In this document: one piece after another, positions 13,743 through 56,553 of the stretch
How positions within the stretch are numbered: the first letter of the stretch is position 1
Layout: every line of letters starts with the position of its first letter
Assembly: GCF_029867415.1 (NCBI RefSeq)
Contig: NW_026705912.1
Span: 62,001 to 126,000, forward strand
Length of the DNA stretch: 64,000 bases
Source of the DNA: Vicia villosa
Lineage: Eukaryota > Streptophyta > Magnoliopsida > Fabales > Fabaceae
Reading direction: 5' to 3'
Translations under genes and position numbers: made by a program
Notes under the pieces: generated by a model
Told to the model about the DNA's origin: nothing
Seen by the model: the letters and a program-made list of their open reading frames with translations, nothing else
Database searches by the model: none

Positions 13743-13744
13743 AT

Positions 13745-13756
13745 TGGCATCAGAGC
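13745..13756 (+). promoter_or_regulatory. Primer-binding site (initiator tRNA-Met)
   Basis: TGGCATCAGAGC, two bases after the LTR, matches the plant initiator tRNA-Met primer site TGGTATCAGAGC with one change. Confidence 0.8.
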
Positions 13757-13818
13757 GTCGGTTCTAGGTGCAAACACTTAATCGTGTTAGAGAAAAGATT
13801 CAGGGAGAAAAACACAAA

Positions 13819-18657: not shown

Positions 18658-19672
18658 ATCTCCCCTTTTTTGATGATGACAAAAACATATATAAATGATA
18701 TGAATTTGCAATCAGAATATCAGACGGCTAAAGACAATTACACAGCTATAGCATAAGCATATAAACATAGTGTGTGAATATGTCTCCCCCTGAGATTAAC
18801 AATCTCCCCCCTGAGATAAATAATCTCCCCCTGAAATAAATACTGGAAGAGATTTATAAATAAAGGACTTCCCTGAGTATTTTCAATTTCAGTTGAGACG
18901 ATCACGTATGCTTAGATCTTCAGAACATTCATAGCTTCTGCTTCTTGCTTCCATAGGACAGCTTCAGAGCTTGAGTTTCTTCTTGAATCATTGCATGCTA
19001 GATTGTATCAGAACATTGTTGAATGTACCAGAGCATCATCAGAGCATCTCTACATCCTGAAATGTTACAGAACAAACTAAACGACAACAGTCAGAGCATG
19101 AATGAATCAGAACATAAAATATGTATCAGAACATATACTATGTATCAGAGCAAAAAAAAAATAATGTTTCAGAGCATATTTAGAACCCAAACATGCATCA
19201 GAACATATAAGGAATAAGAATGAGTTAGAGCATATTCTATCATCAGAATATCATAACATTCTTCCTTCTTGACTCTGATCTTGAAGCTTCACAGCACTCA
19301 GCTTGCTTCAATTTCCATGAGCTTGTTTCCATACAGAATTGCTTTTCCTCATGTCTTTGCTTCTCATGTTGAGCTTTTAATAATATCTTCAATTTCTGCA
19401 AAAACACTCAAAGACATAGAACTTGCAAGTTCTGTTAGAGATGTGGAGACTTTCTCCCAGCAACTAATAAAATAAATCATATCATTTATCACAGTTTCTC
19501 CCCTTTTTTGTCATAACATCAAAAACACAAAAGATTCAGATGAAAAACAAACAATATGAGAGAAAGAAGGATAATTTTCATTGATTTGCAAAAGAGAATT
19601 ATCAGAAAATACAAGGAAGATGCATAGAAGACAGATGCAAGAAACAAAGAAAAACAACTAAGACACAAAGGA
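18658..19672 (-). other. 3' non-coding region and polypurine tracts of element 2
   Basis: On the minus strand GTCATCATCAAAAAAGGGGA ends just before the 3' LTR at 18658, the expected polypurine tract. Upstream, 18783-18833 contains three further purine tracts of the form TCAGGGGGAGA, and 19494-19512 a fourth (ACAAAAAAGGGGAGAAA). The remainder is rich in CAGAACAT and TCAGAAGC motifs and has no coding frame. Confidence 0.7.
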
Positions 19673-22600
19673 CTAAGACGACCCTAGCTTAGACATAATC
19701 TTGGCCAGCCTGTCATGAATCCCAGCATTGCTCTCAGTCTGTCTTTCCATGAAAGAGCGGAACTCAGCATTGATGGTATCTTGGTTGTCCATACGAGAAG
19801 CTAGCTCAGCCTGATTCTTCTGAATAACCTCTAGAGTCTTCACCAGAAGAGAGGGTTCACCAGAAGAAGCTTCACAACTTCTGTCCAGAGGGACAACATT
19901 CACAACCGCAACTTCTATAGTAAGATCATCAACTTGATTTTCCTCAACAGAAATAGTCCCAGCAGGATGATCTTCAGCATCAGCTTCTTCCATAGAGGCA
20001 TCTCCATCATATTCTGGAGCAGGAAGATCAGAATCTCCATTCTCAAGTGCTTGAAGAATGGCAGCAAGATTCCTTGGTGCAGAAGAACCTTCAACTTCTG
20101 GCGGGTCAACAACTTCTAGAATGACCATATTGGAGTCTTCCTCAGAAGGATTCTCCCTCAGAAGGTCAAACAAAGATTTGAAGTCTCCAGTCAGAACTGG
20201 ATACTTAGGTCTCCAGACCACAATATCCCTGCAAGGATTAGCTTCCATTTCCGCAGCAATTCGTGCCTCTACAAGTTCATCAATGAATTCTTTCTCTTCA
20301 AAGCAATATCTTCCTCCAAGACGACTGAACCAGAAGTCTTCATAGTTCCTCAGAATTCCACAAGGTCGTGGAGCAAGTTCTACACAAATTTCCTGAAGTT
20401 CTTCAAAATAAGCATATGCTTTTCTTCGGAAGATTCTCCAGAATTTTCGCATAGCAACATCATTTAATCCAGCATGTGCAACTATTTTGAGAGTATCAAA
20501 GACTCTTTTGAGATTCCTCTTTACCATTTCATAAATTACACCAATAGGGTATGCTCGACGGGATTTGATTTTGGTTATAGGAGAGCCTGGTTTCAGAACA
20601 AGGTAGGGTTGAGGTTCTCTATCAAGGCGGAAAGATGATTCTGCTTCATTCTCAGAGTCTAACACTACCAGTTCAGCTGCAGGACGAGGCTTGGGAGTGT
20701 AGTTGCAGTCATGGAGCAATTGCTCATGTGATGTAGAATCTGGAAGATCAGATACTGAGGGATTGTTTTGAGAGGTGGAAGGAATGGGTTCATAGTGTGC
20801 ATGAGGTGGTGGTTGAGAGGTGGATATATTTGTGTGAGGTGGAAAGAGAGTTTGAAGGGGTTGGATATCAAGAACAGGGGTTTCAAGGGCCTGGTCAGAA
20901 GCTATATTGGTTGTGGTTGGAGATGTAGAAATGGGAACATTTGAGATGGGTGAATGAGAAGGGGCAAGAGTATTGGTTACAGGAGAAGAAGGAGGTGTGA
21001 GAACATGGATGTTTATGGGTGATTCTGATGGGGCTTTTTCTGGTTGATTTACTGGTTCAGGGGTTTGAGCAACATTTATTGGTGCAACTTCTGAACGTAA
21101 AGCAGGAACAAAATCAGGTTCAGAGAGATGTATACCTTTGGACACCTTCTGAACTGCTTCAAACACAGCCTCAAGCTTCCTCTACTTCTTACTTTTTTGC
21201 TCTTCCACAATCTTTGCCTTTCCAAGAGAGATTTCTCTTCTTCTGGCAGATTCAAGATTCTCCTTCTCATTATCAACAACCTTCTGACCTTCAACTTCTA
21301 GAGTTGTTGGTCCTTGAATGATTTCTTCTTGCTGATTCACAGCTTCTGCATGCTGATTCACAGCTTCTTGAATTTCCTTATCTTCATCTGAGGCTTCAAG
21401 GATCAATTTTCTTTTTCTTGACTTTTTCTTCTCAACAGCCTTGTCAGCTTCCACACGTTTGTTATTAGACTTTCTCTTCTTCTTTTTCTTCTTCTCAGCA
21501 GTCTCTTTCTCACTGTTTTTATTTTCAGCTAAAACAACCGGAACATCTTCTTCAACAGCTTTTTCCTCAACAGCTTTCTCAACAACAACAGTAGCAGCAA
21601 CTACACTTTAGACTACCTTCTCCTGGTTAACAGAAGGATGATCAAATTTTCTCTTTGTCCTTCTTTCCTTCTTGACACCAGCTTCCGGTGCATCTTCTGA
21701 GACATCTTCCGAAGCAGCAGGCATGGAAGTAGAAACTTTCTTGTGACCACCTTTAGCAGGAGCATCTTTGTCTTTTTCTTCCTTTAGTGAGTTCAGATAC
21801 TTAGTTCTGACTCCTGGCAGTTCACTTCTGAAGAAGGATTCAAAGTCCGAAAGAACAGGATCTCTTCTGTTCCTTGCACCTGGGAGAGGTTGAGGGGTTT
21901 GTCTGATAGATTCAATAACCTTCATCTTTCTCAAGGTGAGAGCATTCAAACAGCTTTCTGTATCAACAACAAGATCTTTGATGGTCCCTTGAGCTTCCAA
22001 GTCCTCAACAATCTTGGATGAACCAGAAGATTTGTAATAATTCTTCCAAAAGGAATAATACAACTCTTCTTTGCACTGAAAGCGTTTCTGGAATCTCTTA
22101 CAGCAGTCCACATGTGGTTGAAGATTATGTAGATAATATCAACCTTCTTCTGAGTGGCTATGCAATAAAGAATATACTTCTGCTCATTGTTGACAAAGTC
22201 TGCAGAATGGGTTGCTTTTCTGTGATAAAAGCACCCCAGAAGAATCTTGGTCCAGACTTTGTAGAGATCCTTCATGTTCTTGACTCGCTTTGTTTGCTTC
22301 ACGTATGTATAAAGAGTGGCCAAAACCTCATCCCACTCAGCCCTTTGATCAACTTCATGAACACCTTCAGGGTTTCTTAGGTCAAACATCATTCTCAGAA
22401 TGTTTTCAGTAACAACCACAAACTTCCCATGGACAAAGTACAGAATAGATTTAGGAGCAACAACAGCATGCACCCAAAATTCCTTTACAAGATCTGGGTA
22501 AACCGGTCCACAGAACTCAGCAAATAACGAAGTCCATCCTTGAAAAATGATATCTTCTTTAAGGTGAAATTATTCTCTTCAAGACTATCAAAGTCTACCA

Positions 22601-22730
22601 TAAGTTCACAGATAACTTCCAACTCCTTTTTGGGAATAGAGCAGGAGATAACCGGAATAATTTGTAGATCTTCTTCTTGAAGATGAAGAGGAATGGATGA
22701 GCCAGCGTTTAGAGACGACGAAGCAGCCAT
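19673..22730 (-). pseudogene. ORF2 of copia element 2 (broken copy)
   Basis: This is a decayed copy of the ORF2 that is intact at 51317-54058. It starts at the ATG at 22730 (MAASSSLNAGSS) and ends at 19673 with a coiled-coil-like end and LAKIMSKLGSS. It is broken by frameshifts near 22560 and 22025 and by stops at 21608-21610 (TAA) and 21182-21184 (TAG). The last 497 codons (21166-19673) are open. Conserved blocks shared with element 3 include FVHGKFVV, FGRIITNLLVH, LLGCFYHRKATH, RPCGILRNYEDFWF and AAEMEANPCRDIV. Domain order is the same: a globular N-terminal part, Lys/Glu-rich middle, Pro/Ser/Thr-rich linker, conserved C-terminal part, coiled coil. Function unknown. Confidence 0.85.
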
Positions 22731-23130
22731 TGAAACAGTACTGAGATGGCAAGAAATATTTCTGGGTTTGCGCTTAGGGTTTGAGAAAAGACCGAAGAGG
22801 TTGTTTAAAATGCATGCAAGAAGAAAGAGAGAATGAGAGCGAAAAAGATAAACGTTATGATTTGAAATGTATTTATAGAGACGGATTTGAAAAAAAAAAG
22901 AATGCAATAAAATTATGAGAATGAACAGTTATAGAATCAAATGAAATCAATTGCATTAAATGATGAGTGACGTTAGGTGAGAGATCGTGGTAATTGAAAT
23001 GATTTAACACAGTTACCTAGGGCGGCGTCCCATCAGATTCACTCACGCTTTTACCAACCGTACAGACACGTGTTCACCATCAGAATACACTTGATGACAG
23101 CTGTGTTGCACTGAATAGAACTTTTCATCT
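22731..23130 (-). promoter_or_regulatory. Internal promoter and leader of ORF2, element 2
   Basis: On the minus strand it shows GAACACGTGTCTGTACGGTT (23056-23075), TAACGTCACTCATCATTTAA (about 22957-22976), a TATA box CTCTATAAAT (22871-22880) and a leader with CTCAAACCCTAAG (22773-22785), ending at the ATG at 22730. Each block recurs in the same order and spacing upstream of ORF2 in element 3 (50940-51316). This conservation supports a real Pol II promoter, not chance. Confidence 0.65.
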
Positions 23131-23141
23131 TCTGATTCTAA

Positions 23142-24728
23142 TCACTGCTTCTGATTATTACTCTTTAGAAATGATCTAGTTCTGATAGGATCATCTTTCT
23201 TTCCAAGAATCACATCTTCTGAGTGAGCTGCGGTGAGTCTAGAAGATCTTCTGACTGTTGGCTCTTCATAAATCCTGAGATTCTCTAAAGATGCAGCAAC
23301 TTGATCTTCTGATCCTTTGCTTCTGAGACTTTCAGCTTCTGAACCTTTGCTTCTTGTTACTTCAGCTTCTGATATATCAATATCTATATCTGCAAAATTC
23401 TCAAACTGCTTTGGCTTTTCAAGACCAAGCTTATCATCAAATCTGATATTGATTGATTCTTCTACAACAAATGTTTCAGTATTGTATACTCTGTAGCCTT
23501 TGGAGCGTTCAGAATATCCAAGAAGGAAACATTTTTGTGCCTTAGAATCAAACTTACCAAGATGATCTTTAGTATTCAGAATAAAACAAACACGTCCAAA
23601 AGGATGAAAATATGAAATGTTGGGCTTTCTGTTCTTCCACAATTCATAAGGAGTCTTATTTAGAATAGGTCTTATAGAGATTCTATTCTGAATATAGAAT
23701 GCAGTGTTTATTGCTTCTGCCCAGAAGTGCTTAGCCATATTGGTTTCATTGATCATGGTTCTGGCCATTTCTTGTAGAGTCCTATTCTTTCACTCTACAA
23801 CTCCATTTTGCTGTGGAGTTCTAGGGCAAGAGAAATCATGGGCAATGTCATTTTCTTTGAAGAACTCCTCAAAGAATCTGTTCTCAAATTCACCACCATG
23901 ATCACTTCTGACCTTTATGATTTTACACTCCTTCTCAGATTGAATCTGAGTGCAGAATTCAAAGAACACTGAATGAGACTCATCCTTGTGTTTTAAGAAC
24001 TTTACCCATGTCCAGCGGCTATAATCATCTACGGTGACTAATCCATATTTCTTCCCTCTGACAGATGCTGTTTTGACTGGTCCAAACAGATCAATGTGCA
24101 GAAGTTCTAACGGCCTAGAGGAAGAGACAACATTCTTAGATTTGAATGCAGGTTTGGAGAACTGGCCCTTCTGACATGCTTCATAAAGAGCATCTGATTT
24201 GTATTTCAGATTTGGGAGTCCTCTGACCAGATTTAGTTTGTTAATCTGAGAAATCTTTCTCAAACTAGCATGTCCTAATCTTCTGTGCCAGACCCATTGC
24301 TCTTCAGAAACAGACATAAGGCAGGTCACCTTCTGCTTCTCAAGATCAGAAAGATCAATCTTATAAATGTTGTTCTTTCTCTTGCCTGTAAATAGGATTG
24401 AGCCATCCTTCTGATTTACAGCCTTGCAAGACTTTTGATTGAAGATTATATCATAACCATTGTCACTTAATTGACTTATGGACAGTAAGTTATGCGTTAA
24501 TACTTCTACAAGAAGTACATTAGTTATGGAAGGAGAGTTACCAATACTTATGGTTCCAGAGCCAATTATCTTGCCCTTCTGATCTCCTCCAAACTTGACT
24601 TCTCCACCAGACTTAAGCACCAGGTCTTGGAACATAGACCTTCTTCCCGTCATGTGTCGCGAGCACCCAGAGTCCAGGTACCATGACATTTTGTGCTTTG
24701 TCCTCTTTGCTGCCAAGGATATCTGCAA
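23142..24728 (-). pseudogene. Copia protease and integrase of element 2 (truncated pol)
   Basis: The frame from 24728 encodes an aspartic protease active site (YLDSGCSRHMTG, near 24655), then the Gag-pre-integrase zinc region (WHRRLGHASLRK), where the first Cys of the CX2C pair is Tyr (ALYEACQKG). The integrase core follows, with acidic residues in LLHIDLFGP, VRSDHGGEFE and QNGVVE. A TGA at 23790-23792 replaces an Arg codon. The frame then runs on as the integrase C-terminal part to a stop at 23142. The reading ends before any RT motif, so RT and RNase H have been lost. Protease starts in the +1 frame relative to gag, with a 116-nt overlap (24613-24728). Confidence 0.9.
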
Positions 24729-24888
24729 CAGAAATTATCTTCTCCTTAGGTACCCACAATTTCTTGGGTCCTTTCTTGTTAGTTTTCCTCAAGTTCTGAT
24801 TGAACTTGGGTTTAGCATAATAATTAACAGGAGGGACAACATGATATTCTTTAGGTTTGGCAGCATGATATCTTTTAGGTTGTGTCAC

Positions 24889-25845
24889 TGTTTACGGTGA
24901 TTTCCGGTAAACAACCGCTAGTCTTCCAAACTATAATAAATATGATTTGGTTACTCGCAGGATCGACTAGATTGATCCTAGGACACATAGTCAAAAAGAT
25001 TGTTATCAATGGTCATTCGAACCATAGTCATGATTCGTCTTCGTTAATAAGAATTGTTTCGAATAAAACGAGTAATCTTGACAATCACTTGGTTATACGT
25101 AAGTATAATTTCAGTGAAAGGATAAGTAAAATAACATATGAAACGAAAGTATTGTTAAAGCGTAAAGAATCTTAAAATGCAGGAATGTTAAATACTTCAA
25201 AAGTAAATGACATGAAAGTAAAAATACAGAAATGTAAATGGCAAGAAGTAAATGAAATGCAATAATACTGAAAGATATTTGAAAACGAAAGAGAATACAC
25301 ATGTATTAAAATGGTGGTGTCATACGTACATTTTCTCAGCGAACTCTTTCTCTTAACACTTGATACTTGAGTAATATGTGAGTGATTTGTACAAAATGAA
25401 CACACAGAATCCTAACATTAAGACTCCTATTTATACTAATTTCGACCTTAACGGCCCTACGCTAATCTAATGCCACGTTTCTCATAAGAACTCCAAGGAC
25501 GCCATCTGTTATTTAGACAGTTACGAAACCGTCTTCGAATTTCAAATCTTCCCGCCTGAGTCCTTCTTCGACGCGTGGCAGTGTATTTAAAAACACTACG
25601 AAAACACGCTAAGTAGTAATACTTGAACATATTTCATAAATTCTGTCTAAGTCCTCGAAGACATACACTTCTACTAGCTTCAGTATTCATTATCTTCATA
25701 ACGAACTTAGAAGTCTTCATTCTCGAAGCATGGCCATCAGGGGCCATTCTTTTATTTTTAAGGGATGGTCATCAGTAACCATCTTTCCTTCGAATTTTTC
25801 CTTCTTCGAAGAACCAAATTTGTAAAACGAAATCTTCAGCTAACA
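24889..25845 (-). mobile_element. Gypsy Tat-type solo LTR (957 bp)
   Basis: It runs from TGTTTACGGTGATTTCC to AAATCTTCAGCTAACA on the plus strand and is flanked by GTCAC (24884-24888 and 25846-25850). It is the reverse complement of an LTR of the same family as 15264-16127. It interrupts gag of element 2 within a His-Val-Thr tract. No internal region remains, as expected after recombination between the LTRs of a full element. Confidence 0.92.
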
Positions 25846-27500
25846 GTCACATGCTTCTTGGTGTGTGTAGTATGAAAGCTTTGTGCATGTGAAGTGAGCC
25901 TGATATCATGTGAGTGGCCATATTTGAACTGATCATACAATGGCTTGTATGTGATTTTCAAATCATCTACAGGTTCAAATCTACGTGGGATATCACCCTC
26001 ATAGCCAACGCCAATCCTTTTGTTTCCAGAAACTCCATATATCATAGAAGCAAGGTGGCTTCTGCCAATACTTCTAGATAGAAACTTTCTGAAGCTCGAG
26101 TCATATTCTTTCAGAATATGATTGAGGCTAGGAATGGATTTTTCTGATTCAGAAGGAGATCCAATGTCTTTGGATAATTTTAAAACTTTTTCCTTCAGTT
26201 TAGAATTTTCCACTTCCAGCTTCTTAGTTTTAGATTCAAATAGCTTTTTCAGCTTTTTGTATTTGATACTAAGATGAGCCTTGAGTTCCAGAAGTTCAGT
26301 TAAACTGGAAACTAACTCTTCTCTAGATAGTTCAGAAAATACCTCTTCAGAATCTGATTCTGATGTAGATTCTGATCCATCATCCACTGTGGCCATCAGT
26401 GCAAGGTTTGCTTGCTCGCCTTCAGAGTCTGATTCTGATTCTGATTCAGAATCATCCCATGTTGCCATAAGACCCTTCTTCTTATGAAACTTCTTCTTGG
26501 GATTCTCCTTCTGAAGTTTTGGGCATTCATTCTTGAAGTGTCCAGGCTCATTGCACTCATAGCAGATGACCTTCTTCTTGTCAGATCTTCTGCCTCCAGA
26601 AGATTCTCCTCTTTCAGGCTTCTTTAAACTTCTGAAGTTTTTGAACTTTCTTTGCTTGCTCTTCTAGAGTTGGTTAACCCTTCTGGAGATCATGGACAAT
26701 TCGTCTTCTTCTTCTAATTCCGATTCTTCAGAATCTTCTTCTTCAGCCTGAAAAGCGTTAGTGCATTTTTTATAATTAGATTTTAATGCAATAGACTTAC
26801 CTTTCTTCTGAGGTTCATTTGCATCTAGCTCTATCTCATGGCTTCTTAAGGCATTGATTAGCTCTTCCAAAGAAACTTCATTCAGATTCTTTGCAATCTT
26901 GAATGCAGTCACCATTGGACCCCATCTTTTGGGCAAGCTTCTGATGATCTTCTTTACATAATCAGCCTTGGTGTAGCCTTTGTCCAGAACTCTTAATCCA
27001 GCAGTTAGCGTTTGAAATCTTGAGAACATTTTCTCAATATTTTCATCATCCTCCATCTTGAAGGCTTCATATTTTTGGATTAGGGCAAGAGCTTTGGTAT
27101 CCTTGACTTGAGCATTTCCTTCATGGGTCATCTTCAATGACTCATATATATCATAGGCAGTTTCCCTGTTAGATATCTTCTCATACTCAGCATGAGAGAT
27201 AGCATTCAGCAAAACAGTCCTACATTTATGATGATTTTTGAATTGCTTCTTTTGATCATCATTCATTTCTTGTCTTGTAAGCCTTACGCCAGTAGCTTTC
27301 ACTAGATGTTTGTAACCATCCATCAGAAGATCCCATAAGTCACCATCTAGAACAAGGAAGTAACTCTCAAGTTTATCTTTCCAGTATTCAAAGTTTTCAC
27401 CATCAAATACTGGTGGTCTAGCATAACTATTGTTACCATTTCCATTGTGTTGCTCAGCAGAGCCAGATGCAGATGTATTTGTTGGATCTTCACCAGCCAT
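25846..27500 (-). pseudogene. Copia gag of element 2 (one stop, split by solo LTR)
   Basis: The ATG at 27500 starts MAGEDPTNTSASGSAEQ. The UBN2-type Gag domain follows (SNRETAYDIYESLKMTHEG, ADYVKKIIRSLPKRWGPMV), then a zinc knuckle CYECNEPGHFKNEC encoded near 26570-26530. A TAG at 26664-26666 replaces Trp. The frame continues through an acidic Ser/Glu region and a coiled coil to the solo LTR at 25845. The last part of Gag is encoded at 24888-24613 on its other side and contains KPKFNQNLRKTNKKGPKKLW. Confidence 0.88.
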
Positions 27501-27572
27501 CTTGTACTGAAGCGTTTTTCTCTTCCTGAATCTTTTCTAAACACGGTTAAGTGCTTGCACCTTAGAACCGGC

Positions 27573-27584
27573 GCTCTGATACCA
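27573..27584 (-). promoter_or_regulatory. Primer-binding site (initiator tRNA-Met), element 2
   Basis: On the minus strand TGGTATCAGAGC lies two bases after the 5' LTR end, an exact match to the plant initiator tRNA-Met primer site. Confidence 0.88.
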
Positions 27585-27586
27585 AT

Positions 27587-28723
27587 TGAAGGATAGAAAA
27601 ACACTTAGAAAGGGGGGGGGGGGGTTTGAATAAGTGTAGCTTTAAAACTTGTAAGATAAAAACTATTTGCACAATGATTTTTATCCTGGTTCGTTGTTAA
27701 CTAAACTACTCCAGTCCACCCCCTTGGAGTGATTTACCTCACTTGAGGATTTAATCCACTAATCACACAAGATTACAATGGTTTTCCACTTAGACAACTT
27801 CTAAGTCTTCTAGAGTATACTTATCACAAACTGATCACTCTAGGAACAAACTGCTTAGATACCCTATAAGACTTTCTAGAGTATACTGATCAACAACCTG
27901 ATCACTCTAGTTCTTACAACTTAATGTAAACAAATTCTTTTAAGAGTTACAATGCTTCTTAGAAAGCTATTATCACAACTGTGATTTTCTCTTAAGTTTG
28001 AGCTTAATCTCACTAATGTATTACAACAGCAATGTAGTGAGGTTGAAGATGAAGTTTGAGAGCTTTTTGAATTTGACAGCGTTTCTGTGTATTTGCGCAA
28101 GTGTTATATTTAGCTTCTCATCAGAACTTCAATATATAGGCGTCTGAGAAGATGACCGTTGGGAGCATTTAATGCTTTGCGTAATCCGTACAGCATTGCA
28201 TTTAATGTTTCACTCTTTTGTCAACTACCTCGAGCCTTGCTTTCGCTGAGTCTACTGAAGTTGCCTTTAATAGCTTCTAACGTTCCTTTTGTTAGTCAGC
28301 GTAGCCTGCCATCTTGTACTTGCTTCTGATCTGATGTTTGTGTAAACAACGTTTGAATATCATCAGAGTCAAACAGCTTGGTGCATAGCCTCTTCTTGTC
28401 TTCTGACCTTGAAGTGCTTCTTAGCGTGATACCATGAGAACTTTAGTGCTTCTGCTTCTGATCTCAAGTTCTTCTGATGCTTCCATAGACCATGTTCTGA
28501 TTCTGCTTGACCATCTTCTGATGTCTTGCCAGACCATGTTCTGATGTTGCATGCTGAACCTTCTGAGTCAGTGCTTCTTGTGATGATTTTGTGCATACTC
28601 TTTATGTAATTCCTGAAATGGAAATTGCATAGTATTAGAGTACCACATTATCTCATACAAAATTCATATACATTGTTATCATCAATACTAAGAATATTGA
28701 TCAGAACAAATCTTGTTCTAACA
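27587..28723 (-). repeat. 5' LTR of copia element 2 (1137 bp)
   Basis: The LTR carries the same ends as the 3' LTR (TGTTAGAACAAG...ATCCTTCA on the minus strand). Two copies of the CTAGAGTGATC module lie at about 27800-27915. A run of about ten G residues at 27613-27623 distinguishes it from its partner. Confidence 0.9.
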
Positions 28724-46900: not shown

Positions 46901-47300
46901 TTTCTCTATTTATCTTATTGCAATTTAAATTCCTAGATAAATGTATAGGTTGTCAAAATCATGTAAATAGGCTTAGTTTACATTTCCTGCACAATCGATG
47001 TAATAGCGTAGATTTACTTTCCGCACTTTACATTTCCGCATTTTAATTTCCAGCAAATATAAACTGCGTGTATGTCAAAGATAAAATTGAACCGTTAGAT
47101 CACTAACTTCAAAGATAAAATATCTGAATCCAATCACAATCACACTTGCACCTTTTAAGGTAATCCCTTCTCATTCTTTTCAAAATCAAAGTCAAAATTC
47201 TACTGTTTCGAGAACAAAATCGAACCTTTTGTTTGTATCCGGTGAAAGGATAGATTTTTAAAGGAAATAGGATAAAGACCTTACAACTCAGGGTAGACCT
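43939..47300 (+). other. AT-rich body of the Ogre-type LTR, no gene seen
   Basis: The sequence is AT-rich with many short poly-A and poly-T runs and repeated AAAGTCAACA, ATCAT and TTCAAAT motifs. A hairpin-like AGCGCTTCTAGCCAGAAAGCGCT lies near 46099 (described in parts: AGCGCTT and AAGCGCT arms). No reading frame resembles a protein. Confidence 0.5.
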
Positions 47301-48510
47301 TGTTAGAACAAGATTTGTTCTGATCAATTATCTTAGTTTTGATGATAACAATAATATGAATTTTGCTTAAGATAATATGGTACTCTAATCCAATGCAATT
47401 TCCTTTTCAGGAAATATATAAAGAGTATGCATAATTCAGCGCTCAGAAGCTTTGTCTCAAAGGGTTCAGCATGCAACATCAGAACATGGTCTGGCAAGAC
47501 ATCAGAAGATGGTCGAAGCAGAATCAGAACATGGGTCTATGGAAGCATCAGAAGAACAAGAGAACAGAAGCACTGAAGTTCTGATGGTATCACGCTCAGA
47601 AGTACTTCAAGGTCAGAAGATCAGAAGATGCTTTGCACCAAGCTGTTTGACTCTGATGATATTCAAACGTTGTATTCACAAACATCAGATCAGAAGGAAG
47701 TACAAGTGGCAAGCTACGCTGACTGACAAAAGGAACGTTAAAAGCTACTAAAGGCTACGTCAGTAGACACAGCGTGAACAAGGCTCGAGGTAGTTGACAA
47801 AAGCGTATAACATTAAATGCGATGCTGTACGGAACACGCAAAGCATTAAATGCACTCAACGGTCATCTTCTCCAACGCCTATAAATATGAAGTTCTGATG
47901 AGAAGCAAGGTTAACGATCCTGCACCAAAACAACTTATATTAAACTTGCTGAAACGCTGTTCAAATTCAAAGCTCAGAATCTTCATCTTCATCAAAGCTC
48001 ACTACATTGCTGTTGTAATATATTAGTGAGATTAAGCTTAAACGTTAAGAGAAATATCACAGTTTGTGATTATAGCTTTTAAGAAGCAATTGTAATACTC
48101 TTAGAATTGATTACATTAAGTTGTAAGGAACTAGAGTGATCGTGTGGATCAGAATACTCTAGGAAGTCTTAGAGGTTATCTAAGCAGGTTGTAACTAGAG
48201 TGATCGTGTGGATCAGTATACTCTAGAAAAGTCTTAGAGGGTATCTAAGCAGTTGTTCCTGGAGTGATCAGTGTGTGATCAGAAGACTCTGGAAGACTTA
48301 GTTGCTGACTAAGTGAAAAACCATTGTAATCCGTGCGATTAGTGGATTAAATCCTCAGTTGAGGTAAATCATCTCTGCGGGGGTGGACTGGAGTAGTTTA
48401 GTTAACAACGAACCAGGATAAAAATATCTGTGCAATTTATTTTTATCTGTCAAGTTTTTAAAGCTACACTTATTCAAACCCCCCCTTTCTAAGTGTTTTT
48501 TTATCCTTCA
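47301..48510 (+). repeat. 5' LTR of element 3 (1210 bp)
   Basis: The LTR runs from TGTTAGAACAAGATTTGTTC to TTTTTTTATCCTTCA. Three tandem copies of the CTAGAGTGATCGTGTGGATC module lie at 48131-48322. A TATAAATATG box at about 47880 is a candidate LTR promoter. Confidence 0.93.
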
Positions 48511-48512
48511 AT

Positions 48513-48524
48513 TGGTATCAGAGC
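48513..48524 (+). promoter_or_regulatory. Primer-binding site (initiator tRNA-Met), element 3
   Basis: TGGTATCAGAGC lies two bases after the 5' LTR, an exact match to the plant initiator tRNA-Met site. Confidence 0.9.
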
Positions 48525-48596
48525 GCCGGTTCTAAGGTGCAAGCACTTAACCGTGTTTAGAAAAGATTCAGGAAGAGAAAAACGCTTCAGTAAAAG

Positions 48597-50516
48597 ATGG
48601 TTGATGAAAGTGAAAAGTCTACACCTGCATCTACATCTGGCTCTGCTGAGCAATACAACGGTAACAATGGTTATACTAGACCGCCGGTATTTGATGGTGA
48701 AAACTTTGAATACTGGAAAGATAAACTGGAAAGTTACTTTCTGGGTCTAGATGGTGATCTATGGGATCTTCTGATGGATGGTTACAAACATCCAGTAAAT
48801 GCCAGAGGCGTAAAGCTGACAAGGCAAGAAATGAATGATGATCAGAAAAAGCTTTTCAGGAATCATCATAAATGCAGAACTGTTTTGCTGAATGCTATCT
48901 CTCATGCTGAGTATGAGAAGATATCTAACAGGGAAACGGCCTATGACATATATGAGTCCTTGAAAATGACTCATGAAGGAAATGCTCAAGTCAAGGAGAC
49001 TAAAGCTCTAGCTTTAATCCAGAAGTATGAAGCCTTCAAGATGGAGGATGATGAAGACATTGAAAAGATGTTTTCAAGATTTCAAACTCTTACTGCTGGA
49101 TTGAGAGTTCTTGACAAGGGATACACCAAGGCTGATCACGTAAAGAAGATCATCAGAAGCTTACCCAGAAGATGGGGTCCTATGGTGACTGCATTCAAGA
49201 TTGCAAAGAATCTGAATGAAGTTTCTCTGGAAGAGCTTATCAGTGCCTTGAGAAGCCATGAAATAGAGCTGGACGCAAATGAGCCTCAAAAGAAAGGTAA
49301 GTCTATTGCATTAAAATCCAATATCAAGAAATGCACTAATGCTTTTCAGGCTAGAGAAGAAGATCCTGAAGAATCAGAATCTGAAGAAGAAGATGAACTG
49401 TCCTTGATCTCCAGAAGGCTAAATCAACTCTGGAAGACCAAGCAAAGGAAGTTCAGAGGCTTCAGAAGTTCAAAGAAATTTGAACGTGGAGAATCTTCTG
49501 ATGACAGAAGATTTGACAAGAAGAAGGTCATGTGCTATGAATGCAATGAGCCTGGACACTTCAAGAATGAATGTCCAAATCTTCAGAAGGAAAATCCCAA
49601 GAAGAAGTTTCATAAGAAGAAAGGTCTTATGGCAACCTGGGATGAGTCAGAAGATGATTCAGACTCTGAAGATGAGCAGGCTAACTGTGCGCTGATGGCG
49701 ACAGAAGATGACGGATCAGAATCTACATCAGAATCAGATTCTGAAGAGGTATTTTCTGAACTTACTAGAGATGAGTTAGTTTCCGGTCTAACTGAACTTC
49801 TGGAACTCAAGTCTCAGATTAGTCTCAAATACAAAAAGCTGAAAAAGCTGTTTGAATTTGAAACAAAGAAGCTTGAGTTGGAGAATTCTGAATTAAAAGA
49901 AAAACTTTTAAAATTATCCAATCATGTTGGATCTCCTTCTGATTCAGAAAAATCCACTCCTAGTCTAAACCATATTCTGAAAGAATATGATTTAAGTTTC
50001 AGGAAGTTCTTATCTAGAAGTATTGGCAGAAGTCAGCTAGCTTCTATGATATATGCTGTGTCTGGAAACAAAAGAGTTGGCATTGGTTTTGAGGGTGAAA
50101 CCCCATACAAACTTGAACCTGTTGATGAAATGAAATTCACATACAAGCCATTGTATGATCAGTTCAAGTATGGCCACTCCCATGATATTAGGCACACTTC
50201 ACATGCTCAAAGTTTTCACATAACACACACCAAAAGGCATGTGACACAACCTAGGAAATATCATGAAACTCACATTAAAAATTATCATGCTGTTCCTCCT
50301 ATTGCTTACAATGTTAAACCCAAGTTCAATCAGAACTTGAGAAAATCTAACAAGAAAGGACCCAAGAAAATGTGGGTACCAAAGAAAAAGACTATTTCTT
50401 TTGCAGATTCTCTTGGCGACAAAGAAGATAAAAGTCAACATGACATGTCTCCTGGACTCAAGTTGGTCTCAACACTTGAAGGGAAGAAAGATTGTCTTCC
50501 AAGTTCTGGTTCTTAA
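48597..50516 (+). CDS. Gag of copia-derived element 3 (639 residues, intact)
   Basis: This is the structural Gag protein that would form cytoplasmic virus-like particles and bind element RNA. After an Ala/Ser/Asn-rich start comes a UBN2-type Gag domain (about residues 30-240; PPVFDGENFEYWKDKLESYF, ADHVKKIIRSLPRRWGPMV). An acidic Ser/Glu tract follows, then the zinc knuckle CYECNEPGHFKNEC at residues 313-326 (CX2CX4HX4C intact). Next are a second acidic Ser/Asp tract, a Leu/Lys-rich coiled coil (about 395-450), and a basic tail (KPKFNQNLRKSNKKGPKKMW). It is uninterrupted, while copies in elements 1 and 2 have stops. Protease lies in the +1 frame with a 116-nt overlap at the end. Confidence 0.92.
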   Translation: MVDESEKSTPASTSGSAEQYNGNNGYTRPPVFDGENFEYWKDKLESYFLGLDGDLWDLLMDGYKHPVNARGVKLTRQEMNDDQKKLFRNHHKCRTVLLNAISHAEYEKISNRETAYDIYESLKMTHEGNAQVKETKALALIQKYEAFKMEDDEDIEKMFSRFQTLTAGLRVLDKGYTKADHVKKIIRSLPRRWGPMVTAFKIAKNLNEVSLEELISALRSHEIELDANEPQKKGKSIALKSNIKKCTNAFQAREEDPEESESEEEDELSLISRRLNQLWKTKQRKFRGFRSSKKFERGESSDDRRFDKKKVMCYECNEPGHFKNECPNLQKENPKKKFHKKKGLMATWDESEDDSDSEDEQANCALMATEDDGSESTSESDSEEVFSELTRDELVSGLTELLELKSQISLKYKKLKKLFEFETKKLELENSELKEKLLKLSNHVGSPSDSEKSTPSLNHILKEYDLSFRKFLSRSIGRSQLASMIYAVSGNKRVGIGFEGETPYKLEPVDEMKFTYKPLYDQFKYGHSHDIRHTSHAQSFHITHTKRHVTQPRKYHETHIKNYHAVPPIAYNVKPKFNQNLRKSNKKGPKKMWVPKKKTISFADSLGDKEDKSQHDMSPGLKLVSTLEGKKDCLPSSGS

Positions 50517-50935
50517 ATCTGTTGAAGAAACTATGTTCGTAGGAAATCAGAAAAGAAAGTTTATTAGTCTTGGAACCATCTGTTTTGTTTGTCTCTAAAG
50601 CATTGATGTTTCGTTCTTGAGTATTCTAAATGCTCTAAATGCTACAGAATATACAATATTGAAACATTGATTGTGGACGAATCAATAAATATCTGGTTTG
50701 ATGATAAACTTGTTTCTAATGAAACAAAACGCTTAAGAATTTCTGCAGATACAGTTTTGTCTTATCAGAAGCTGCAGAACAAAGAAGTGAACCTCCAGAA
50801 GCTGTGTATATCAGAAGTAATGGATCAGAAGATCATTCAGATTTATATCAGCACACTTCAGAAGGAGTGTTTCCTGAAGAGAAACTTGATCAGATCAGAA
50901 GCAGTGATCAGAATCTGAAGGCGTAAAGTCTATTC
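50401..50935 (+). pseudogene. Protease and integrase C-terminal remnants of element 3
   Basis: The +1 frame from 50401 matches element 2 protease but is decayed: the active site reads LDSSWSQHLKG. After about 50600 the sequence jumps to the integrase C-terminal part (ESINIWFDDKLVSNET near 50680), followed by degenerate reading to about 50916. The integrase core, RT and RNase H are deleted. Confidence 0.75.
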
Positions 50936-50939
50936 TGAA

Positions 50940-51316
50940 ATTTACAGCTGTCATCTATTATCTGATGGTGAACACGTGTCTGTACGGTTTGTACAAAGCG
51001 TGCAGTTGAAAAGACGCCGACCTAGGTAACTGTTTTAAATCATTTCATTTACCACGTTCTCTCTCCTTACGTCACTCATCATTTAATAAAATTGATTTCT
51101 TTTGATTCTGGAACTGTTTAGTTTATATTTCTTTTTATTTTCCTTTTCAAATCCGTCTCTATATATTCTTTTCAAATCATATCTTACATCTTTTTCGCTC
51201 CCTTGTCTCTCTCTCTCCTTGCATTCTCTCGTTTGAAAAGTTCTTAGCCGTTTTCTAAAAACCCTAATCGAAAACCCAGTTCGCTTTTCTTGTTCGTTTT
51301 TGTTCATTCTGCATCC
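50940..51316 (+). promoter_or_regulatory. Internal promoter and leader of ORF2, element 3
   Basis: It contains AACACGTGTCTGTACGGTT (50971-50989), CTTACGTCACTCATCATTTA (about 51066-51085), a TATA box CTCTATATATTC (51157-51168), a CT-rich leader (CCTTGTCTCTCTCTCTCC) and AAAACCCTAATC (51257-51268) before the ATG at 51317. All blocks recur in order in element 2. ACACGTGT is a G-box core and ACGTCA a bZIP-type site (established motifs), and AAACCCTAA a telo-box. The order suggests ORF2 is transcribed separately from the LTR transcript. Confidence 0.7.
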
Positions 51317-54058
51317 ATGGCTGCCTTCTCATCCCAAAATGCTGAGTCATCTGTTCCTCATCATCTCCAAGAAGAAACTTTGCAACTCACTCCTGTTGTT
51401 GCATGCTCCATTCCTAAAGATGAATTGGAAGTTCTGTGTGAACTCATGGTTGACTTTGACAACATTGAAGAAAACCAATTTCACCTTAAAGAAGACATCA
51501 TCTTTCAAGGATGGACCTCGTTGTTTGCTGAGTTCGTTGGTCCAGTTTATCCGGATCTTGTCAAGGAGTTCTGGGCACATGCTGTGGTTGCTCCAAAATC
51601 TATACTTTCTTTCGTCCATGGAAAGTTTGTTGTTATTACTGAAAACATCCTAAGAATGATGTTTGATCTGAAAAACCCTGAAGGGGTTTATGAGTTTGAT
51701 CAAAGGGCAGATTTGGGAGATGTTCTATCCACTCTCTATCTAAATGTCAAGAAAACAAAACACGTCAAGGATTTGAAAGATGTCTACAGAATCTGGACAA
51801 AGATCCTTCTTGGGTGTTTCTACCATAGGAAAGCAACACATGCCTCGGATTTCATCAGTAATGATCAAAGGTATATTCTTTATTGCATTGCCACTCAGAA
51901 GAAGGTTGATGCGATTTACATTATCTTCAACCATATGTGGAAAGCAGTAAAGGATTCCAGAAACGCTTTCAGAAAAGAAAATGGTGGAACAATCATTCCT
52001 TTTGGTAGAATTATTACAAACCTTCTGGTGCATTCCAAGATTGTTGAGAGTCTGGAGTCTGAAGGTATTATCAAAGACCTTGCTGTCACCTCTGGAGCCT
52101 GTCTGAATGCTTTTTCTTTAAAGAAGATGAAAATAATTGACACTATCCTCAAAGTTCCTCAACCTCTAGCTGGAACAAGAATCAGAAGAAAACCAGTACT
52201 AGCTGACTTTGAAACCTTCTTCAATAGTGAGGTACCTGAAGTCAGAACTAAGTATCTGAAGTCACAAAAAGAGGATAAGAGTCTTAAAGATCAAGACAAA
52301 GGTGCTCCTATTAAAGTGAATCGTAAGAAGGAAGAAAGGACCAAAAGAAAGTTTGATCATCCTGCTGCTACCACCAATAAAGAAGTGGTCCCAGAAGAAG
52401 TCATTGCAAAAGTTGCTAAGGCTGTCTCTGCTGATTTTGAGAAGAAAAAGAAGGAAGCTGAGAAAAAGAAGAAGAAGTCAAATAACAATGCTGAGATTGT
52501 TGAAGTTGTTGAGAAGAAGAAAATCAGAAAAAGAAAGATGATTCTTCAAGAATCTGATGAAGAAAATATCTCTCAAGAGGCTGAGAATCAACCAGAAGTT
52601 CTGGCATATGTCAGAAGGAAAGAAATCGCTAGCGGCAAAACAAAGATTATTGAAGAGCCGAAGAGTAAGAAGCAGAAGAAGACTGAGGATGTGGCCAAAG
52701 CTTTTCTGAGAGGTTCCAAAGGTATATGCATTTCTGAACCTGATTCTGTTCCTGCTGTTTGTTCAGAAGCTGCACCAATAGAGGTTGTCCCTACACCTGA
52801 ACCAGAAAAAGCCACATCAGAATCACCTGTCTTTGTCCATGTTCTTACACCTCCATCTTCTCCTATAACCATTCCTTCCTCTCCACCTACCATAAATCCT
52901 GTTCTGGATATACCACCCCTTCAAACTCTCTTTCCATCTCAACCTTCTCTCAATGCCACTCTTGAACATACTCCCTCCACCTCTCAAAACAATCTTTGTG
53001 ATTCTCCTCTTCCAACCTCTGCATCACATGAGCAGCTGCTCCGTGATTGCAACTACACTCCCAAGCCTCGTCCTGAAGCTGAAGTGGTAGTGTTAGATTC
53101 TGATACTGAAGCAGAATCTTCTTATAGGTTGGATAGAGAACCTCATCCGTACTTCACTTCCAACCTTGCCTTTTCAAAAACCCAAATAAAATTCCGCCCT
53201 GTATATCCTATTGGTGTAGTTTTTGAAAACATAAAGAGGAATCTCAGAAGTACCTTTGATACTCTCAGAATTGCTGAAAGTTCTGGATTGAATGATGTTG
53301 CTATGCGGAACTTCTGGAGGATCTTTCGCAGAGAATCAGATGCTCTGTTTTTAGAACTTCAGGAAGCCTGTGTAGCTGCTGCCCCACGGCCTCGTGGAAT
53401 TCTGAGGAATTATGAAGACTTCTGGTTTGCTAGTCTCAAAGGAAGACATCTGTTGGAAGAGAAGCCCTTCTTGGATGAGATGGAACAATTAAGATTGGCT
53501 GCTGAAATGGAAGCAAATCCATGCAGGGATATTGTTATCTTTATTCCTGATTATCCTGTTCTGCTCGGAGATTTCAAGACTCTTTTTGACTTTCTGAGGG
53601 AAAACCCATCTAAGGAAGATCCAAGCTTGGTCATTCCAGAAGTTGTTGACCCACCAGAAGTTGAAGGTCCTTCTGCTCCCAGGAATCTAGCTGCCATTCT
53701 TCAGGCACTTGAAAATGGAGACTCGGAAATTCCTGCTGCAGAATATGGAGATGCTTCTATGCAAGAAGCAGATGCTGAAGATCATGTTGCTAAAACTGTT
53801 CCTGTTGAGGAAATCCCTGCAAATGATCTATCTATGGAAGCTGCAGATCAACATGTCATCCCTGTGGATAGAAGCGTTGAAGCTTCTTCTGATGAATCTT
53901 CTCGTCTTGCAAGGACTCTGGAAGAAATTCAGAAGAGACAGGATGAGCAAAGCTCACTCAATGCTGAGTATAGCGCTTTCATGGTGAGGCAAGAAGGACA
54001 CAACAATAAGGTTCAAGAGATGCTGACCAAGATCTTGTCAAGACTAGGGCCATCTTAG
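51317..54058 (+). CDS. ORF2 of the copia-derived family: intact 913-residue protein, function unknown
   Basis: The start is the ATG at 51317 (MAAFSSQNAESS); the frame is open to TAG at 54056-54058. A globular N-terminal part spans about residues 1-330 (LVKEFWAHAVVAPKSILSFV, LLGCFYHRKATH, FGRIITNLLVH). A Lys/Glu-rich stretch (about 335-455) contains EKKKKKS and KKKIRKRK, likely nuclear targeting. A Pro/Ser/Thr-rich linker covers about 490-570. A conserved C-terminal part (about 615-815) includes MRNFWRIFRRESDAL, RPRGILRNYEDFWF and AAEMEANPCRDIVIF. The last 50 residues look like a coiled coil. I see no signal peptide, membrane segment or polymerase, nuclease or protease motif. It sits where SIRE-type elements carry their env-like ORF, but it looks soluble and has its own promoter. 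It may be a captured host gene or belong to the loosely named plant transposon protein families; I cannot decide. Confidence 0.9.
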   Translation: MAAFSSQNAESSVPHHLQEETLQLTPVVACSIPKDELEVLCELMVDFDNIEENQFHLKEDIIFQGWTSLFAEFVGPVYPDLVKEFWAHAVVAPKSILSFVHGKFVVITENILRMMFDLKNPEGVYEFDQRADLGDVLSTLYLNVKKTKHVKDLKDVYRIWTKILLGCFYHRKATHASDFISNDQRYILYCIATQKKVDAIYIIFNHMWKAVKDSRNAFRKENGGTIIPFGRIITNLLVHSKIVESLESEGIIKDLAVTSGACLNAFSLKKMKIIDTILKVPQPLAGTRIRRKPVLADFETFFNSEVPEVRTKYLKSQKEDKSLKDQDKGAPIKVNRKKEERTKRKFDHPAATTNKEVVPEEVIAKVAKAVSADFEKKKKEAEKKKKKSNNNAEIVEVVEKKKIRKRKMILQESDEENISQEAENQPEVLAYVRRKEIASGKTKIIEEPKSKKQKKTEDVAKAFLRGSKGICISEPDSVPAVCSEAAPIEVVPTPEPEKATSESPVFVHVLTPPSSPITIPSSPPTINPVLDIPPLQTLFPSQPSLNATLEHTPSTSQNNLCDSPLPTSASHEQLLRDCNYTPKPRPEAEVVVLDSDTEAESSYRLDREPHPYFTSNLAFSKTQIKFRPVYPIGVVFENIKRNLRSTFDTLRIAESSGLNDVAMRNFWRIFRRESDALFLELQEACVAAAPRPRGILRNYEDFWFASLKGRHLLEEKPFLDEMEQLRLAAEMEANPCRDIVIFIPDYPVLLGDFKTLFDFLRENPSKEDPSLVIPEVVDPPEVEGPSAPRNLAAILQALENGDSEIPAAEYGDASMQEADAEDHVAKTVPVEEIPANDLSMEAADQHVIPVDRSVEASSDESSRLARTLEEIQKRQDEQSSLNAEYSAFMVRQEGHNNKVQEMLTKILSRLGPS

Positions 54059-54225
54059 CTTGAGTCTGTATTGTTTCTTTCTTTTCGTTGCATCTGTCTT
54101 TGTGCATCTGATCTTACTTATCTTCATGTACTTCTGTACCTGCTGTTTGAACTTCAATGAAATCATCTTCTTCCTCCGTGTGTTTCGTTTTGTTTGTCTC
54201 TGAATATTTTTTGCTTTTTGATGAT

Positions 54226-54245
54226 ATGACAAAAAGGGGGAGAAG
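54226..54245 (+). promoter_or_regulatory. Polypurine tract-like site after ORF2
   Basis: ATGACAAAAAGGGGGAGAAG lies 170 bp after the ORF2 stop. It is also present in element 2 (about 19494-19512, minus). It resembles the true polypurine tract at the 3' LTR but lies 1.1 kb upstream. Confidence 0.5.
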
Positions 54246-54772
54246 ATAAATGATAAATGATTTGATTAATCTATCAGTTGCTGGGTAAAGCTCCCACACA
54301 TTCACTAACAAGAACTGCAAGTTCTATATGGTTAAGTGTTTTGCAGGTATAAAGAAGTGAAGAAAATCTTCAAAGCAAACACAAGAAGCAAAAACCATAA
54401 GAAGTGTTATTCTGTAAAAAGAATAAGCTCATGGAAACTGAAGCAAGCTGAGTGCTATCAAGCTTCAGAAATCAGAAGCAAGAAAGAAGAATGAATCAGA
54501 AGCACTGATAATAGAATTTGATCCATATTTGTCTATTTGTTCTGACAAAATTCTATTTGCTCTGATACATTATTTTAGCCTATATGGCTCTGATACATAT
54601 CATGTGTTCAAATATACATTTTATGTTCTGACTCGTTCATGCTGACTTTTGTCGTTTAGTTTTTGTTCTGTAACATTTCAGGATGTAGAGATGCTCAGAT
54701 GATGCTCTGGTACATTCAACAATGTTCTGATACAAATCTAGCATGAAGTGATGTTGGTAGAAATTCAAAGCT

Positions 54773-55110
54773 CTGAAGCTATCCGAGGCAAGCAGAAATC
54801 AGAAGCTGTGAATGTTCTAAAGATCCAGAAAACTCAAGTTCTGAAGCTGTCCTAGATGGAAGCAGAAATCAGAAGCTGTGAATGTTCTGAAGATCAAAGA
54901 AATTCAAGTTCTGAAGCTGTCCTGAATGGAAGCAGAAATCAGAAGCTGTGAATGTTCAGAAGATCAAAGAAATTCAAGTTCTGAAGCTGTCCTAGATGGA
55001 AGCAGGAATCAGAAGCTGTGAGTGTTCTAAGGATCTAAAGAAATTCTAGTTCTGAAGCTGTCCAATGGAAGCAGAAGTCAGAAGCTATGAATTCTCTAAA
55101 GACAGAAGCT
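54773..55110 (+). repeat. 70-bp tandem repeat, five copies
   Basis: Units start at 54773, 54841, 54911, 54981 and 55052. Each begins CTGAAGCTGTCC and contains GGAAGCAGAAATCAGAAGC, TGTGAATGTTC and AAATTCAAGTT. Units 2 and 3 differ by only a few bases; the outer ones are more divergent. Confidence 0.9.
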
Positions 55111-55167
55111 TATATGATCGTCTCTACCGAAATAATCAGGGAAGTCTTTTATTAAAGTTCTTCGAGT

Positions 55168-55228
55168 ATTTATTTCAGGGGGAGATTATTTATCTCAGGG
55201 GGAGATTGTTAATCTCAGGGGGAGACAT
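55168..55228 (+). repeat. Three tandem purine-tract modules (TCAGGGGGAGA)
   Basis: Three copies of TTTATTTCAGGGGGAGATTA or TTAATCTCAGGGGGAGA lie 110-170 bp before the 3' LTR. The same triplet is present in element 2 (18783-18833). ATCTCAGGGGGAGAT is partly palindromic. Confidence 0.8.
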
Positions 55229-55325
55229 ATTCATATGCTTATGCTATAGCTGTGTAATTTGTCTTTTGCCGTCTGTTCTTTCTGATCGCAAATTCATATC
55301 ATTTATATATGTTTTTGTCATCATC

Positions 55326-55339
55326 AAAAAGGGGGAGAT
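55326..55339 (+). promoter_or_regulatory. Polypurine tract of element 3
   Basis: AAAAAGGGGGAGAT abuts the 3' LTR TGTTAG at 55340, the position required to prime plus-strand synthesis. Confidence 0.88.
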
Positions 55340-56548
55340 TGTTAGAACAAGATTTGTTCTGATCAATTATCTTAGTTTTGATGATAACAATAATATGAAT
55401 TTTGCTTAAGATAATATGGTACTCTAATCCAATGCAATTTCCTTTTCAGGAAATATATAAAGAGTATGCATAATTCAGCGCTCAGAAGCTTTGTCTCAAA
55501 GGGTTCAGCATGCAACATCAGAACATGGTCTGGCAAGACATCAGAAGATGGTCGAAGCAGAATCAGAACATGGGTCTATGGAAGCATCAGAAGAACAAGA
55601 GAACAGAAGCACTGAAGTTCTGATGGTATCACGCTCAGAAGTACTTCAAGGTCAGAAGATCAGAAGATGCTTTGCACCAAGCTGTTTGACTTTGATGATA
55701 TTCAAACGTTGTATTCACAAACATCAGATCAGAAGGAAGTACAAGTGGCAAGCTACGCTGACTGACAAAAGGAACGTTAAAAGCTACTAAAGGCTACGTC
55801 AGTAGACACAGCGTGAACAAGGCTCGAGGTAGTTGACAAAAGCGTATAACATTAAATGCGATGCTGTACGGAACACGCAAAGCATTAAATGCACTCAACG
55901 GTCATCTTCTCCAACGCCTATAAATATGAAGTTCTGATGAGAAGCAAGGTTAACGATCCTGCACCAAAACAACTTATATTAAACTTGCTGAAACGCTGTT
56001 CAAATTCAAAGCTCAGAATCTTCATCTTCATCAAAGCTCACTACATTGCTGTTGTAATATATTAGTGAGATTAAGCTTAAACGTTAAGAGAAATATCACA
56101 GTTTGTGATTATAGCTTTTAAGAAGCAATTGTAATACTCTTAGAATTGATTACATTAAGTTGTAAGGAACTAGAGTGATCGTGTGGATCAGAATACTCTA
56201 GGAAGTCTTAGAGGTTATCTAAGCAGGTTGTAACTAGAGTGATCGTGTGGATCAGTATACTCTAGAAAAGTCTTAGAGGGTATCTAAGCAGTTGTTCCTG
56301 GAGTGATCAGTGTGTGATCAGAAGACTCTGGAAGACTTAGTTGCTGACTAAGTGGAAAACCATTGTAATCCGTGCGATTAGTGGATTAAATCCTCAGTTG
56401 AGGTAAATCATCTCTGCGGGGGTGGACTGGAGTAGTTTAGTTAACAACGAACCAGGATAAAAATATCTGTGCAATTTATTTTTATCTGTCAAGTTTTTAA
56501 AGCTACACTTATTCAAACCCCCCTTTCTAAGTGTTTTTCTATCCTTCA
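55340..56548 (+). repeat. 3' LTR of element 3 (1209 bp)
   Basis: It is nearly identical to 47301-48510. The differences seen are C/T at 47653/55692, A/G near 48316/56355, T/C near 48502/56540, and one C fewer in the run near 56518-56523. Three CTAGAGTGATC modules lie at 56170-56361. Confidence 0.93.
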
Positions 56549-56553
56549 GACCT

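Follow-up and report, generated by a model that had tools for sequence, protein, structure and literature searches.

The stretch of DNA analyzed here, 64,000 nucleotides of Vicia villosa (contig NW_026705912.1, positions 62,001 to 126,000 of the forward strand; hereafter, the window), contains a complete long terminal repeat (LTR) retrotransposon, element 3, at window positions 47301..56548 on the plus strand, with a 5-bp target site duplication (TSD), a primer binding site (PBS), a polypurine tract (PPT), and two intact open reading frames (ORFs), gag and ORF2. The TSD GACCT, to which no strand applies, occupies 47296..47300 on the left and 56549..56553 on the right. The 5' LTR (47301..48510, plus strand; TGTTAG...TTCA, with TG...CA ends) has 23-bp and 64-bp tandem repeats inside it, and the 3' LTR lies at 55340..56548 (plus strand). 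Across 1211 alignment columns, the two LTRs (1210 and 1209 bp) differ by 3 substitutions and 1 indel, a divergence of approximately 0.25%; at 1.5e-8 substitutions per site and year (a rate quoted in PMC2410132), insertion took place roughly 80,000 years ago, with the wide error that attends 3 substitutions in about 1210 bp.

The priming sites are those of Sireviruses. Directly past the CA of the 5' LTR, an ATTGG spacer is followed by the Sirevirus-type PBS TATCAGAGC (48511..48524, plus strand). The terminal PPT, AGGGGGAG, starts at 55330, 10 bp upstream of the 3' LTR, and is completed by an AT attachment dinucleotide (55330..55339, plus strand) before the LTR TG at 55340, as described for Sireviruses (PMC2829016). 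Multiple PPTs are a further Sirevirus character, and additional copies of the octamer were found at 55177, 55197, and 55217, in an upstream cluster (55167..55225, plus strand), and at 54235; all four sit past ORF2, and none occurs on the plus strand from 47301 to the ORF2 end. Tandem repeats of about 70 bp, rich in ATCAGAAGC, fill part of the linker (54759..55105, plus strand). The window gave no matches when scanned against Rfam (at the gathering threshold) or for tRNAs.

The intact gag (48597..50516, plus strand) encodes 639 amino acids with a Retrotran_gag_2 domain (PF14223, 89 bits; a copia-type gag) and one CCHC knuckle, the single zf-CCHC match over the cutoff; Sirevirus gag genes characteristically have multiple CCHC motifs. 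It is followed by a pol relic (50517..50893, plus strand), interpreted by alignment to a fuller relative, element 2: the first 47 or so residues of a protease-like Pol_BBD domain end at 50587, a deletion of the remaining protease and the integrase core (50587/50606) intervenes, a remnant of the SH3-like region spans 50606-50835, and the deletion that removed reverse transcriptase (RT) and RNase H has set in by 50894. Element 3 contains no integrase core, RT, or RNase H, and most of the protease is gone too. ORF2 (51317..54058, plus strand) is intact, with 913 codons and a PF20167 N-terminal domain (68 bits). The original prediction, made from the letters of the sequence, had described a complete element whose LTRs differ at three substitutions plus one indel and in which only Gag and ORF2 are intact beside a decayed protease and a missing integrase core, RT, and RNase H; boundaries, TSD, PBS, and PPT were all found as described, and the alignments and domain matches agree with the remainder.

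Family copies, RT-bearing relatives, and recombination

Many copies share the deletions of element 3. The best 50 scored ORF2 matches are all full length and 97-100% identical, and 43 of them, element 3 included, are stop-free; first-look candidate counts (19392, 63050, and 3295) are not copy numbers and were not used as such. The pol-deletion junctions of element 3 were present in 46 of 47 copies examined, element 3 counted. Among ORF2-selected copies, the junctions lie within 1.5 kb upstream, together with element 3's gag end, in 29 of 30 (element 3 among them), the lone exception (L013) being alignable to element 3 only from 51066 onward, and all 30 loci enter element 3's linker and LTR downstream. 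A second sample of 40 places was chosen by the non-coding region before ORF2; 23 were also among the 50 best ORF2 matches, with ORF2 stop-free over its full length in 21, and the remaining 17 all carried element 3's deletions, with ORF2 open and unshifted to codon 400 in 13. A second ORF2 subfamily (protein P0005, 77% identical) was stop-free in 49 of 50 N-terminal rows and had element 3's relic upstream in all three copies sampled. Element 3 is thus not a single deleted copy of a common element with RT, and the proposal of a recently active, copia-derived, RT-less family is supported. Some copies are paired about 8 kb apart (C5:83619668/83627637, C7:61352694/61360705, and C4:4758749/4766859), a spacing expected of tandem LTR-internal-LTR-internal-LTR arrays that arise by unequal recombination.

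Element 2 (17527..28723, minus strand; TSD GTATC) is a related RT-less element that has kept protease, integrase, and the SH3-like region and carries a broken ORF2 of the same type. A search with its integrase gave 127 scored matches at 95-97% identity (100% for element 2 itself), 46 with frames of at least 600 amino acids and 24 with frames of 525-540; the former we call the RT class, a term that denotes a long integrase frame, RT itself having been read in only some such copies. Eight integrase loci comprised element 2 itself, four copies with RT, two RT-less copies with ORF2, and one interrupted copy; RVT_2 scored 266-268 bits in the RT-bearing copies L040 and L044. L044 and L045 (C1:49396097 and C1:50468622), both RT bearing, have near-equal match figures with one TAG each in the match and may have arisen by segmental duplication or as sister insertions.

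The original prediction had ORF2 captured as a separate gene in place of RT, and the position of ORF2 directly after the pol remnant in elements 2 and 3 fits that account. The RT class speaks against it. ORF2-related sequence lies 3' of the pol stop in all three RT-class copies with long probes: identity to element 3's ORF2 is 77% over residues 720-911 in L047, 49% over 68 residues in L048, and, in L049, 34% in the N-terminal domain and 49% in the C-terminal part. When 20 further RT-class copies were probed at the expected ORF2 start, 13 matched, 12 to another ORF2 type (four of these matches span only 59-62 residues) and 1 to element 3's type, with no match in 7; of 20 short-frame copies, 17 had element 3's type and 1 the other type, 2 being unmatched. 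In L124, a pol end (a 232-amino-acid frame, RNase H by eye with no Pfam hit) is followed by an ORF2 region of the element 2/3 type, the ORF2 having an early stop. RT-class copies therefore carry ORF2 downstream of pol, so that the gene is part of a gag-pol-ORF2 arrangement and did not take the place of RT; capture we regard as extremely improbable. The gene between pol and the 3' LTR in L047-L049 and L124/L087 sits where the ENV-like gene of Sireviruses resides, and we identify ORF2 with that gene.

The original prediction further suggested mobilization in trans by an autonomous relative, to be sought by the same LTR and primer site. RT-bearing relatives do exist in this genome, and one of them, L049 (assigned to the RT class by its frame length), is identical to element 3 at the PPT/attachment site and over the first 24 nucleotides of the LTR.

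The copies have evidently exchanged parts. The four RT-bearing copies that were read match the 5' half of element 2 at 92-96% identity; gag identity of element 3 with these four and with element 2 is 85.6-87.1%. At the ORF2 N terminus, element 2's type shares 74-85% identity with element 3 and 36-47% with the other type. A short sequence to the right of the RT-deletion junction is common to element 2's group and element 3, the left side being too short to tell whether a single event was involved. Reassortment was seen in both directions: L125/L122, an RT-less copy, bears the other ORF2 type, and L124/L087, of the RT class, bears element 3's type, which is what template switching between RNAs, presumably copackaged, would yield. 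Diversity within ORF2 rises over codons 701-900 (window 53417-54016), to 0.11 at four-fold sites in codons 701-800 and to 0.029 at second positions in codons 801-900, and suggests that ORF2 C termini are recombinant.

Elsewhere in the window, element 1 (12658-15378) comprises a third related LTR (74-75% identical), a variant PBS TTGGCATCAGAGC, and a gag; a 3' LTR of its own was not found within the window. By eye, an open frame at 7604-8437 (minus strand) resembles a plant gene encoding an FHA-type domain, and open frames at 28844-33303 (plus strand) resemble gypsy-type gag, protease, and RT fragments.

Purifying selection on Gag and ORF2

Over ORF2 codons 1-400, nonsynonymous divergence (dN) was 0.0107 and synonymous divergence (dS) 0.0411, a dN/dS of 0.26 (bootstrap 0.17-0.40) against a neutral expectation of 0.70 derived from the spectrum of mutations in the dead pol relic. 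This sample comprised 31 copies chosen by non-coding sequence (17 from the first loci and 14 of the 17 new ones); L050, L051, and L064 were excluded for frame-shifting indels, and L060 and L021 were retained with the stop codon skipped. Copies chosen by protein gave 0.33-0.34. For the C-terminal part of Gag (codons 429-639), dN/dS was 0.32 against 0.71 expected, from 28 copies out of 29, the one excluded having four gaps or more; second-codon-position diversity in Gag (0.034, against 0.044 at four-fold sites) had seemed near unconstrained, but that alignment included gapped rows. For the deeper split, ORF2 N termini of 16 copies from element 3's group were compared with those of 14 copies from element 2's group (called RT-less from the short distance between integrase and ORF2), giving dS 1.23, dN 0.107, and a ratio of 0.087; L107, L118, and L087 went unused because of early stops, and L111, L112, L113, L119, and L122 had no usable element 3-type start. 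Ratios of 0.23-0.26 between element 3's Gag and L040, L044, L042, and L041 were not relied on, each hit containing one or two stops. Gag and ORF2 are under purifying selection in the RT-less family, as the original prediction had proposed, and, as far as tested, ORF2 does not evolve neutrally.

We consider element 3 probably to be a member of a many-copy, non-autonomous Sirevirus (Ty1/copia) family that supplies its own Gag and ORF2 and borrows Pol. From the gag-pol-ORF2 order seen in relatives, RT-RNase H has been deleted, with a right junction common to element 2's group, and element 3's group has additionally lost the integrase core and the greater part of the protease; copies have gone on amplifying while Gag and ORF2 stayed under purifying selection. 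Family RNA is likely to be packaged into particles made largely of the family's own Gag, with protease, integrase, RT, and RNase H presumably supplied in trans by RT-bearing relatives. Fully trans-acting products would not be expected to stay intact, so Gag and ORF2 would act preferentially on the encoding copy or its close family, which Pol need not do.

The copies could instead be simple parasites, with every function provided in trans and Gag and ORF2 intact merely through youth. The near identity of element 3's LTRs and the 97-100% identity of the 50 best ORF2 matches speak for it, but youth sits poorly with ratios of 0.26 and 0.32 where 0.70-0.71 is expected, and with 0.087 for a split as deep as dS 1.2; nor does it account for the loss of protease, integrase, RT, and RNase H alongside the retention of Gag and ORF2. 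We think this explanation unlikely. Selection might also act only in RT-bearing donors, from which RT-less copies are refreshed with Gag and ORF2 by recombination, and the reassortment described above is of the kind required; against this, 12 of the 13 RT-class copies that could be typed among the 20 probed have another ORF2 type, and the element 3-type relic is coupled to its own ORF2 in 46 of 47 copies and to the second subfamily in 3 of 3. That only donors are under selection therefore seems improbable to us.

Several considerations nevertheless weigh against a self-sufficient Gag-ORF2 family with a borrowed Pol. Selection may act partly in RT-bearing copies and be imported by recombination, and the neutral expectation is model based, drawn from the spectrum of one relic region with context dependence ignored. 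No ORF2 match was obtained in 7 of 20 RT-class and 2 of 20 short-frame copies over the short stretch probed. Four RT-bearing copies are 85.6-86.5% identical to element 3's gag, so that none of them stands out as the exact helper, and the comparison of shared ends is confined to the PPT side and the LTR start of L049. The family is known here from genomic DNA alone.

The role of ORF2 and comparison with known systems

ORF2 is probably a nuclear protein whose expression is driven by a promoter-like region of its own. A candidate internal promoter in its 5' region (50894..51316, plus strand) contains CACGTG (-344), TATATA (-157), a CT-rich patch (-111), and AAACCCTA (-58); among 30 copies, a TATA box (-156 to -163) is present in 28 and AAACCCTA in all 30, an upstream ATG is absent from 28, and diversity before ORF2 is 0.021-0.023 against 0.046 in the pol relic. 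On the other side, low diversity also occurs in the tandem repeats (0.021), the PPT region at 55106-55339 (0.005), and the LTR start (0.011), and the ORF2 leader of element 2 has five upstream ATGs. The missing upstream ATGs of element 3 (zero within 350 nucleotides against 2.7 expected, fraction 0.053) were set aside as weak evidence of a leader.

Basic clusters resembling nuclear localization signals (NLSs) occupy ORF2 residues 376-407 and 451-456, and a long helix is predicted, with low confidence, at the C terminus. In a single model of moderate confidence, the predicted structure of the PF20167 N-terminal domain matches the DNA-bound VANC21 fold; a full-length model was discarded (pLDDT 34). 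At the sequence level, no VANC match was found for ORF2 in Pfam or the PDB: DUF1985, which we take to be the VANC domain, gave no match at E values up to 1 among 27 ORF2 members, although a distant relative could escape such a search, and PDB searches with the N-terminal domain and its alignment gave nothing credible (best E values, 1.4 and 0.17). A viral structure library yielded nothing below an E value of 0.001 (best, 0.21). The motif ATCAGAA, a candidate target only, occurs in both orientations at 6-9 per kb in the LTRs and linkers of element 3, element 2, and L049 against 0.10 outside; its density is 3.7 per kb in the LTR of element 1 and 4.7 per kb in gag.

ORF2 sits where Sireviruses carry their ENV-like gene (PMC3414828, PMC2829016), as an envelope-like protein moving between cells would. 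No clear transmembrane segment was detected, the Kyte-Doolittle maximum being 1.49 per 19 residues (no dedicated predictor was run), and the several NLS-like clusters and the likeness of the N-domain model to a DNA-binding protein likewise disfavor movement between cells, which we judge very unlikely. The fold match, NLS-like clusters, promoter-like region, and motif array favor a role in counter-silencing over one in infection, and one of the two genes that the family has kept may counter the plant's silencing of such elements. More specifically, though tentatively and with somewhat less than even expectation, we suggest that the Sirevirus "envelope-like" ORF2 is a VANC-type, sequence-specific DNA-binding anti-silencing factor that would be made from its own internal promoter, enter the nucleus, bind the ATCAGAA arrays in LTRs and linkers of its own family, and keep them transcribed. 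ORF2 would then protect the DNA copies that bear its arrays, and strong selection on it would be expected though RT and RNase H are lost; it would confer a benefit that Pol borrowed from elsewhere cannot. The envelope-like gene of Athila, by way of PF20167, is perhaps likewise anti-silencing, the 3' ORF of sunflower Athila also matching this domain (PMC11728184). The general idea is already in print as a question, in a discussion of VANC that asks whether the extra ORFs of Tork and Athila shape their methylation (PMC12844716); no link between PF20167 or ENV-like genes and VANC was found in the literature, among the matches listed.

The predicted VANC-like fold recalls VANC of VANDAL, which is also element encoded, and the dense short motif in non-coding tandem-repeat regions may correspond to the motif arrays known there (PMC5735166, PMC12844716); VANDAL, however, is a Mu-like DNA transposon, whereas element 3 is an LTR retrotransposon with a different motif in both orientations and a putative anti-silencing function. 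Maize Grande gene23 (PMC7264820) is likewise an accessory gene located 3' in the internal region; it has a promoter of its own and a nuclear product, both putative for ORF2, but it is antisense, whereas ORF2 lies in sense. TR-GAG elements, one of which transposed in Arabidopsis ddm1, are non-autonomous and keep Gag as their single ORF (PMC8704663); element 3, in contrast, keeps a second, selected ORF. With the ENV-containing Sireviruses (PMC2829016, PMC3414828), in which an internal promoter was proposed but not identified, element 3 has in common the PBS, PPT octamer, AT/TG attachment, several PPTs downstream of the third gene, and gene between pol and the 3' LTR; it differs in being without RT, RNase H, and most of protease and integrase and in an ORF2 without a clear transmembrane domain. 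No RT-less Sirevirus that keeps an ENV-like gene was found in the literature on non-autonomous Sireviruses, judged by titles and abstract openings.

The closest parallel is provided by pol-less Athila families of Arabidopsis, whose Gag and Env ORFs are under purifying selection and which are thought to be mobilized in trans and to recombine with pol-bearing families (PMC2410132). There, as here, a whole family is without RT-RNase H while gag and an accessory gene are selected. Athila belongs to Ty3/gypsy; element 3, a Ty1/copia Sirevirus of a legume with a PF14223 gag, lacks the LTR and gag features of Athila, and its accessory gene is predicted to adopt a VANC-like fold and is accompanied by a motif array. 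By this analogy, the RT-less family is a Sirevirus variant of the pattern known from pol-less Athila and gives those families a Ty1/copia counterpart. It constitutes a natural experiment that separates the proteins a retrotransposon must make itself (Gag and ORF2) from Pol, which can be supplied by others, and the old question of the role of plant "envelope-like" genes becomes testable.

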